Source: Geosiphon pyriformis
Lineage: Eukaryota; Glomeromycota; Glomeromycetes; Archaeosporales; Geosiphonaceae
DNA length: 64,000 nt
Assembly: GCA_016748015.1 (NCBI GenBank)
Contig: JAAOMT010000620.1
Span: 359,246-423,245, forward strand
Direction of reading: 5' to 3'
This document shows positions 58,404 to 59,507 of this stretch, piece after piece (positions within the stretch are counted from its first letter, which is position 1; every line of letters begins with the position of its first letter). The notes beneath the pieces were generated by a model. The model saw only the letters and a program-made list of their open reading frames with translations, was not told the origin of the DNA and did no database searches. The position numbers were made by a program, and so were the translations under genes.

Positions 58404-59507
58404 CTATTTGGGAGTACTCGGAATTTTTGATTTGGGCTTATCTTTTACGACTGTTATTTGATTTAAAATATCTGGATATTTTCAAGCTAACTAAAAACCC
58501 TCAATTCTATTGCTAATGAAAAAATTCTGAAGTTCACTGCTTGGAGACATTTGCAGTTGCCAAATTTATTTTCATTTGAAACACATCAAGCGTGACTTGA
58601 TAATCAAAAAATGATTTATGTTAATGGTTTAGAACGATATAGGCGTTAATCAAAAAAAATTATAAGAAATACCTCTCAAATTATTCTGCTTTGATGTAAT
58701 CGTTTGTTGTAAGGAGTCAAGGTTTTGTTTGACAAATTCTACCTTTCCTAAGAAGAATTTAATTGCATCTTCGATAGACTAGATATTGAATAATGTAAAT
58801 AAGCATTGAACCAAAGCCTTTGATTTAAATATCTCGAGAAAAACCTATACCTTTTCTACATAATATCCAGTACCAACATCTACAATCACCTTTTCAGATT
58901 GGGCCAATTCTCCAGGTACATAAAGGTATAATTAGCATGTTAAGGTGATTAATTTGGATATTTTATTAAGGAGCAGAGTTCCAAATAAAAGGATATCGAC
59001 TCTGTTAAAGGTAAAAGTATGTCTTTTCCTGTTTTATGCCCCAGAATTAGTAAACAGATCAATAAGATTCATAGGGAAAATGATAGCAACTTCAAAAATT
59101 ACCTGAATTGCCAGATTTGACTGCTTCTACACTGAGTATACAATCTTGGAATTTGCCCTGTGCTTGTTTTAATTGCGCAAATGAAGTAGTCAAGTGAGAT
59201 AATTCCTGAGAGATTAAAACAATTCTTTTTAAATTTTGAAGACTTTTGGTAATTCTCAAACGAGAATTTAGCGTTATTAAAGAAATCCCGATTTGACTCG
59301 AAATAGCTGGCTAAACTAAAAGTAAATAGCCGGTTTCTAATAAATATATACTTCTTCCAATTGCTTTTTAACTTCTGCTAATTGTGGAATGTCCAAGTCA
59401 GTGAGTTCAATAGTTGACTGCTGTTGTCGAGAATTAGGTAAGCTTGATACAGACATTTCTTCGTGGTGGTTCAGTGTTGGATGTTTATTGGCTCTTCTTT
59501 TACCCAT
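58404..59507 (-). CDS. Prefoldin subunit 5, six exons, one U12-type intron
   Basis: The exons are 59507-59352, 59205-59103, 59028-58997, 58925-58851, 58778-58673 and 58471-58404. All phases agree, giving 179 residues. Prefoldin is a cytosolic hexameric chaperone that passes unfolded actin and tubulin to the CCT chaperonin; subunit 5 is one of its two alpha-class subunits. Family wording is clear: [60 protein letters not shown] and EDAIKFFLGKVEF, followed by a coiled coil and a Lys/Pro/Ser tail (KDKPKSKIPSTPK). Introns 1, 2, 4 and 5 are GT-AG. Intron 3 (58926-58996) is AT-AC. An extra Lys/His-rich N-terminus precedes a second Met (MSVSSLPNS), which could be the true start. Confidence 0.9.
58926..58996 (-). 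other. U12-type AT-AC intron in the prefoldin subunit 5 gene
   Basis: This 71-bp intron has 5' splice site ATATCCTTTT, a branch-site match CCTTAAC whose A (58940) lies 14 bases before the end, and terminal AC. It separates codons TCG and CTT in phase 0, restoring the family motif [12 protein letters not shown]. No AG dinucleotide lies between the branch motif and the next exon, so a GT-AG reading does not work here. Confidence 0.85.

Follow-up and report, generated by a model that had tools for sequence, protein, structure and literature searches.

Our analysis of the sequence leaves us in little doubt that the prefoldin subunit 5 (PFDN5) gene of the fungus Geosiphon pyriformis holds a U12-type (minor) AT-AC intron; very probably, this U12-type intron sits in a lineage that has a minor spliceosome. 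The intron lies on the minus strand of the window, by which we mean the whole stretch of 64,000 nucleotides that was analysed. The features of the gene are listed in Table 1, together with the other AT-AC introns of the genome for which we found homology across the spliced junction.

Table 1. Features of the PFDN5 gene in the window and further supported U12-type AT-AC introns of the genome
Feature	Positions	Strand	Basis
U12-type AT-AC intron, 71 nt, phase 0	58926..58996	-	sequence; best of 63 intron choices; product gap-free
5' splice site, U12-type, ATATCCTTTT	58987..58996	-	sequence; predicted U11 and U6atac pairing
Branch site CCTTAAC	58939..58945	-	sequence; predicted U12 pairing
3' splice site AC	58926..58927	-	sequence; frame and homology
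PFDN5 exon 1, from the first ATG (possible alternative start at a later one, MSVSSL)	59352..59507	-	gene model
PFDN5 exon 2	59103..59205	-	open variant of gene model; human alignment
PFDN5 exon 3	58997..59028	-	gene model; human alignment
PFDN5 exon 4	58851..58925	-	gene model; human alignment
PFDN5 exon 5, SIEDAIKFFLGKVEFVKQ..., 3' end about 58675	58675..58778	-	gene model; human alignment
PFDN5 intron 1, GT-AG, 146 nt	59206..59351	-	gene model
PFDN5 intron 2, GT-AG, 74 nt (open variant)	59029..59102	-	gene model
PFDN5 intron 4, GT-AG, 72 nt	58779..58850	-	gene model
AT-AC intron, XPG/RAD2			junction-spanning homology
AT-AC intron, neurofibromin			junction-spanning homology
AT-AC intron, neurofibromin paralogue			junction-spanning homology
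AT-AC intron, ATG9			junction-spanning homology
AT-AC intron, SMC3			junction-spanning homology
AT-AC intron, Cch1/NALCN-type channel			junction-spanning homology
AT-AC intron, second XPG intron			two short alignment gaps, one at junction

The intron and the PFDN5 gene

Read on the minus strand from 58996 down to 58926, the intron and its flanks are GTCG/ATATCCTTTTATTTGG...AATCACCTTAACATGCTAATTATAC/CTTT, so that the intron starts with ATATCCTTTT and ends with ATCACCTTAACATGCTAATTATAC. The consensus of U12-type 5' splice sites is [A/G]TATCCTT, and ATATCCTTTT agrees with it. The consensus of the branch site is TTCCTTRAC; the last 7 letters of CACCTTAAC agree with it and the first 2 are CA instead of TT, which makes this a branch site of the U12 type. 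Furthermore, the distance from the branch site to the 3' splice site is short in U12-type introns, about 10-20 nt, and the layout of the 3' part is here CACCTTAAC-13 nt-AC. The original prediction, which had placed an AT-AC intron of this layout at these positions and in phase 0, is thus borne out by the sequence, the reading frame and the alignment with human PFDN5, and 291 coding bases (156+103+32) precede the intron. It had also put CCTTAAC 14 bases before the intron end: the motif is present, but 13 nt lie between it and the end, and 14 is reached only when counting starts at its last C. The remaining introns of the gene, described as ordinary, are indeed GT-AG in all three modelled cases.

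From base composition alone, the joint chance of finding both U12 motifs at these positions, given the AT start, is about 1.5e-7, and a script scanning the whole window with a relaxed U12 pattern returned the PFDN5 intron and nothing else. Inside the intron there are also an extra branch-like TCCTTAAT (58972-58965, minus strand) and an extra 5'-site-like ATATCC (58961-58956, minus strand).

Regarding the gene itself, the partial product of 157 aa matches the Pfam Prefoldin domain (E 2.2e-25), and its best match is the human PFDN5 chain 7wu7_5 (E 1.8e-30), with a printed alignment that has no gaps, the AT-AC junction included. Judged by its predicted product, the gene is prefoldin subunit 5. 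For intron 2 there is an alternative of 75 nt (exon 2 end at 59104) that breaks the frame, whereas the 74-nt variant (end at 59103) keeps it open. The gene model is partial at its C-terminal end, as no last exon was found.

Minor-spliceosome components in the genome

We searched the genome (124,688,122 bases, that is 124.7 Mb, in 406 contigs) for the minor snRNAs at the Rfam cut-offs. There was one genome match each for U11 (80.9 bits, cut-off 39), U12 (55.1 bits, cut-off 53) and U6atac (70.9 bits, cut-off 33), whereas the one match for U4atac reached 43.7 bits (E 1.7e-4), under its cut-off of 53. None of these four snRNAs had a match in 14 control genomes. In the alignments, U11 has the 5' end AAAAGGG and an Sm-like site AAUUUUUA, U12 has the GUAAGGA box, U6atac has AAAGGAGAGA and a T run at its terminus, and U4atac has an Sm-like site AAUUUUUG. 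A scan of U12 for an Sm site found none, and AAAUAUUUG occupies its place.

The U4atac candidate has a predicted duplex with U6atac of -40.5 kcal/mol; shuffled U4atac sequences gave a mean of -28.0 (sd 4.2), and only 2 of 500 were equally low. Furthermore, in comparison with the Rfam consensus, as read from the alignments, there is one two-sided change in each stem, A-U to G-C in stem I and C-G to U-A in stem II, and these paired changes argue that the weakly scoring U4atac is genuine. The predicted duplexes with the PFDN5 intron, taken as bare energies, were -9.4 kcal/mol for the U11 5' end and -7.6 kcal/mol for the GAAAGGA of U6atac, both at the 5' splice site, and -5.4 kcal/mol for U12 around UAAGG at the branch site.

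Both specific proteins that we searched for, CENATAC and PDCD7, were detected. CENATAC/CCDC84 appears as three collinear stretches above the Pfam cut-off that span 1.7 kb. PDCD7/U11-59K is also above the Pfam cut-off and matches the PDB PDCD7 chain 8r7n_D (E 5.7e-5); this protein is specific to the minor spliceosome. According to PMC8280824, CENATAC acts in human cells to promote the splicing of minor introns of the AT-AN kind.

Thus, far from all minor-spliceosome components being absent, the genome holds snRNA genes, three of them above the cut-off and U4atac below it yet pairing with U6atac, and genes for two specific proteins. The claim that the lineage keeps a working minor spliceosome is upheld, as far as genes can indicate it, by the minor snRNAs, CENATAC, PDCD7 and the further U12-type AT-AC introns described below.

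Rare AT-AC introns of the major class do exist (according to PMC8280824), and the PFDN5 intron might be one of them, of U2 type and removed by the major spliceosome. We consider this very unlikely, because ATATCCTTTT has no GTAAGT-like stretch that could pair with U1, the 5' site is instead predicted to pair with U11 and U6atac, and a U12-type branch site stands close to the intron end.

Alternative splice choices

Between the start of exon 3 and the end of exon 4 we scored 63 intron choices of at least 30 nt (12 GT-AG, 11 GC-AG and 40 AT-AC), as well as the unspliced sequence, against the corresponding segment of human PFDN5. The reported AT-AC pair came top with 134. The next three were also AT-AC choices, with 119, 117 and 114, and they add stops or residues: the one scoring 119 contains a stop, and the one at 58966-58926, which uses the same 3' site with another AT and scores 114, is in frame and stop-free with extra residues. 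The reported pair alone among the 63 choices gives a stop-free product that aligns with human PFDN5 without gaps. Therefore, the AT-AC termini are fixed by the reading frame, as the gene model, the human alignment and the scoring of the alternatives all indicate. In the unspliced transcript the frame runs into stops inside the intron.

We rejected splicing at GT-AG or GC-AG sites, since only one of these 23 choices, a GC-AG, was in frame and stop-free; its product lacks the conserved LYVPGEL...VD block and scores 68. A pseudogene, or a gene spliced at GT-AG sites, with the U12 motifs present by chance, would fit with the missing last exon; however, we consider such an explanation extremely improbable in view of that single open choice with its deleted block, of the gap-free product and of the composition-only chance of the motifs. 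Chance as the origin of the motifs is also rejected on the excess of the AT-AC pattern over its control in the genome and on the scoring of the intron choices.

Further AT-AC introns in the genome

All the patterns used to search the genome required exact letters and 30-60 nt between the elements, so that longer introns and weaker sites escape them. The first short AT-AC U12-type pattern gave 19 rows, corresponding to 16 places, versus 3 rows for its built-in reversed control; in a separate control, with each AT-AC element reversed, there were 2 rows, which are one place. With the second AT-AC pattern there were 13 rows, versus 6 for its control, and 4 places were added. We classified the resulting 20 distinct places into four groups, counting as supported only those where Pfam or PDB homology runs across the spliced junction.

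i) Supported introns. There were 8 cases, that is, the PFDN5 intron and seven more (Table 1). The XPG/RAD2 gene (L010, L029; C272) apparently has two U12-type AT-AC introns, about 1.3 kb apart.

ii) Open frame only. In 6 cases (L005, L006, L007, L009, L016 and L022) the spliced frame is open and we accepted no database match crossing the junction. L005 has a Pfam match only below the cut-off (E 0.013), the Pfam match of L022 (E 0.0045) does not cross the junction, the LsmAD match of L009 begins 24 residues past it, and a PDB search with L006 gave no match. These genes are presumably VAC14 (L006), ataxin-2 (L009), an Rsc9/ARID2-like protein (L016) and NRDE2 (L022).

iii) Exon. One place (L008) was rejected as an intron, as it reads through as an exon that is open unspliced over 68 aa.

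iv) No support. Five places (L013, L017, L028, L030 and L031, with rows L017-L019 being a single place) lack coding support and were not counted.

Where several AC ends were possible (L009, L013, L015 and L020), we chose whichever end preserved the frame or the homology. Because 12 of the 20 places fall into the last three groups, a match to the pattern does not by itself prove an intron.

The two neurofibromin paralogues (L015, 1501-1576, and L020, on the minus strand) offer a comparison within the genome. Leaving aside one 10-base gap, 71 of the 76 aligned positions of their AT-AC introns are equal (93%), while the adjoining major introns are equal at 44 of 64 (69%, 15 gap columns) and, with approximate borders, at 43 of 57 (75%, 12 gap columns). 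The identity of the exon stretches is 87-97%. In this single gene pair, the conservation of the AT-AC intron is a hint of constraint on its sequence, and gene conversion could also explain the similarity.

Surroundings of the gene and origin of the contig

The window also contains an EOS1-family gene and a gene for mitochondrial L28/mL40, whose best matches are yeast-type mitoribosome chains. On the plus strand, at 56760-57647, a single frame of 295 aa has an EOS1 match at residues 2-75 and a galactosyltransferase match at residues 180-268; this frame is possibly a fusion, or else two genes read through. Frames of LINE-like type (reverse transcriptase, RNase H, endonuclease) lie at 10965-12749, 25482-26240, 33214-34014 and 36007-37428, the second and the fourth with matches under the Pfam cut-off. 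The G+C content of the window is about 30%, with AT-rich tracts near 14% at 16001-20000 (14.1%) and 60001-64000 (14.6%), and it rises up to 39% in other 4-kb stretches.

If the contig or the snRNA matches came from a contaminant, the intron and the machinery need not belong to one organism; the snRNA genes and the PFDN5 gene do sit on separate contigs, and the channel and neurofibromin pieces are closest to animal chains, though fungal chains may be missing from the PDB. We give hardly any credit to such an origin, because EOS1, which we take to be a fungal family, lies on the same contig about 1.0 kb from the modelled 3' end of PFDN5, the mL40 of the window is closest to yeast-type mL40, and XPG, ATG9 and SMC3, which have AT-AC introns on other contigs, have their nearest matches among yeast or fission-yeast chains. 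The fungal origin is well supported.

Possible predominance of AT-AC over GT-AG minor introns

The matched GT-AG patterns showed no excess, with 4 rows (3 places) versus 6 control rows for one and 2 rows versus 9 for the other. The only supported GT-AG U12-type intron was found in a DENN-domain gene (L027, 1501-1590), with uDENN homology across the junction; two other GT-AG places (L024 and L025) were unsupported. Under matched strict patterns there were thus 8 supported AT-AC places, or 14 including the open-frame cases, versus 1 GT-AG place. In human, AT-AC introns make up about 26% of the minor introns and GT-AG ones 68% (PMC7367187, Table 2). A binomial comparison with the human share gives 2.3e-4 for 8 of 9 and 1.7e-7 for 14 of 15, provided that the strict patterns capture either subtype to the same extent. 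This skew was less expected than the intron itself, and the strict patterns may bias the AT-AC share.

AT-AC introns are over-represented with respect to the human 26% in other organisms too. Their share is 47% in Drosophila (PMC7367187, Table 2), which belongs to a group with massive loss of minor introns (PMC10639083), and 77% in Blastocystis, though its minor introns are many (PMC10639083), while in Phycomyces the ratio of AT-AC to GT-AG is 9:8 or 8:12 depending on the method, that is, about half AT-AC (PMC2846911). Nevertheless, those counts come from ESTs or annotation, whereas ours come from strict patterns only. A link between the loss of minor introns and the AT-AC share is favoured by Drosophila and Blastocystis, but it is opposed by Anopheles, also a dipteran, with 8.3% AT-AC, and by Apis, with 8.6% (both in PMC7367187, Table 2).

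As a tentative explanation, which we regard as possible rather than probable, the minor introns surviving in this genome might be almost all AT-AC because GT-AG ones drifted to the major class. AT-AC introns, being poorly read by the major spliceosome, would be trapped, and would keep the entire minor spliceosome alive, including CENATAC, its factor for AT-AN introns.

Probable minor splicing in this lineage

From the sequence elements, the unique frame, the snRNA genes and the two protein genes, the pairing potential and the sister introns, we infer that the minor snRNAs are expressed and that the PFDN5 transcript is spliced at this pair of sites. In the general pathway of minor splicing, U11 and U12 recognise the intron, U6atac takes over and the intron is excised. 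Here, U11 on the 5' splice site and U12 on the branch site would recognise the intron jointly, with U6atac then taking over at the 5' site; excision by the minor spliceosome would follow, probably with the assistance of CENATAC. If the removal failed, the frame would meet stops.

The intron may be old. A human isoform of 109 aa lacks 45 aa, residues 25-69, which lie between the positions of intron 1 and of the AT-AC intron here. Judging by the length of that isoform, a shared 3' site at M70 would mean that the minor intron of the human gene lies between the same two codons, and the AT-AC intron could then be common to both genes. Human PFDN5 is a minor-intron gene (PMC8034651; PMC10853781), like the gene described here, which fits an old shared intron; the cited passages are silent on the position in the human gene.

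Minor introns are already known in fungi. Rhizophagus irregularis has 205 of them, along with the full set of four minor snRNAs and several of the proteins specific to this machinery, and Basidiobolus meristosporus has 249; they are also reported in Spizellomyces, Piromyces and Neocallimastix, and their loss in Dikarya (PMC10639083), and U12 introns are listed for Rhizopus and Phycomyces (PMC2846911). Geosiphon pyriformis resembles Rhizophagus irregularis and Basidiobolus meristosporus in having U12-type introns; as a difference, our strict patterns yielded 8 supported AT-AC introns (14 including open-frame cases) and 1 supported GT-AG intron here. The parts of PMC10639083 on which we draw give no AT-AC share for Rhizophagus. 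In the published text searched, we found no minor intron in a fungal prefoldin gene, and the word prefoldin is absent from the main texts of PMC10639083 and PMC2846911. The PFDN5 case is thus a solid further example of a known phenomenon.

Taken as read from the genome, the intron, the snRNAs, the specific proteins and the sister introns would form a self-consistent case of a fungus that has retained minor splicing. If the idea of trapped AT-AC introns were true, this genome would offer a natural setting in which to test the model of one-way conversion, and if the skew holds on a full annotation, it would bear on how a minor spliceosome persists through introns that resist conversion.
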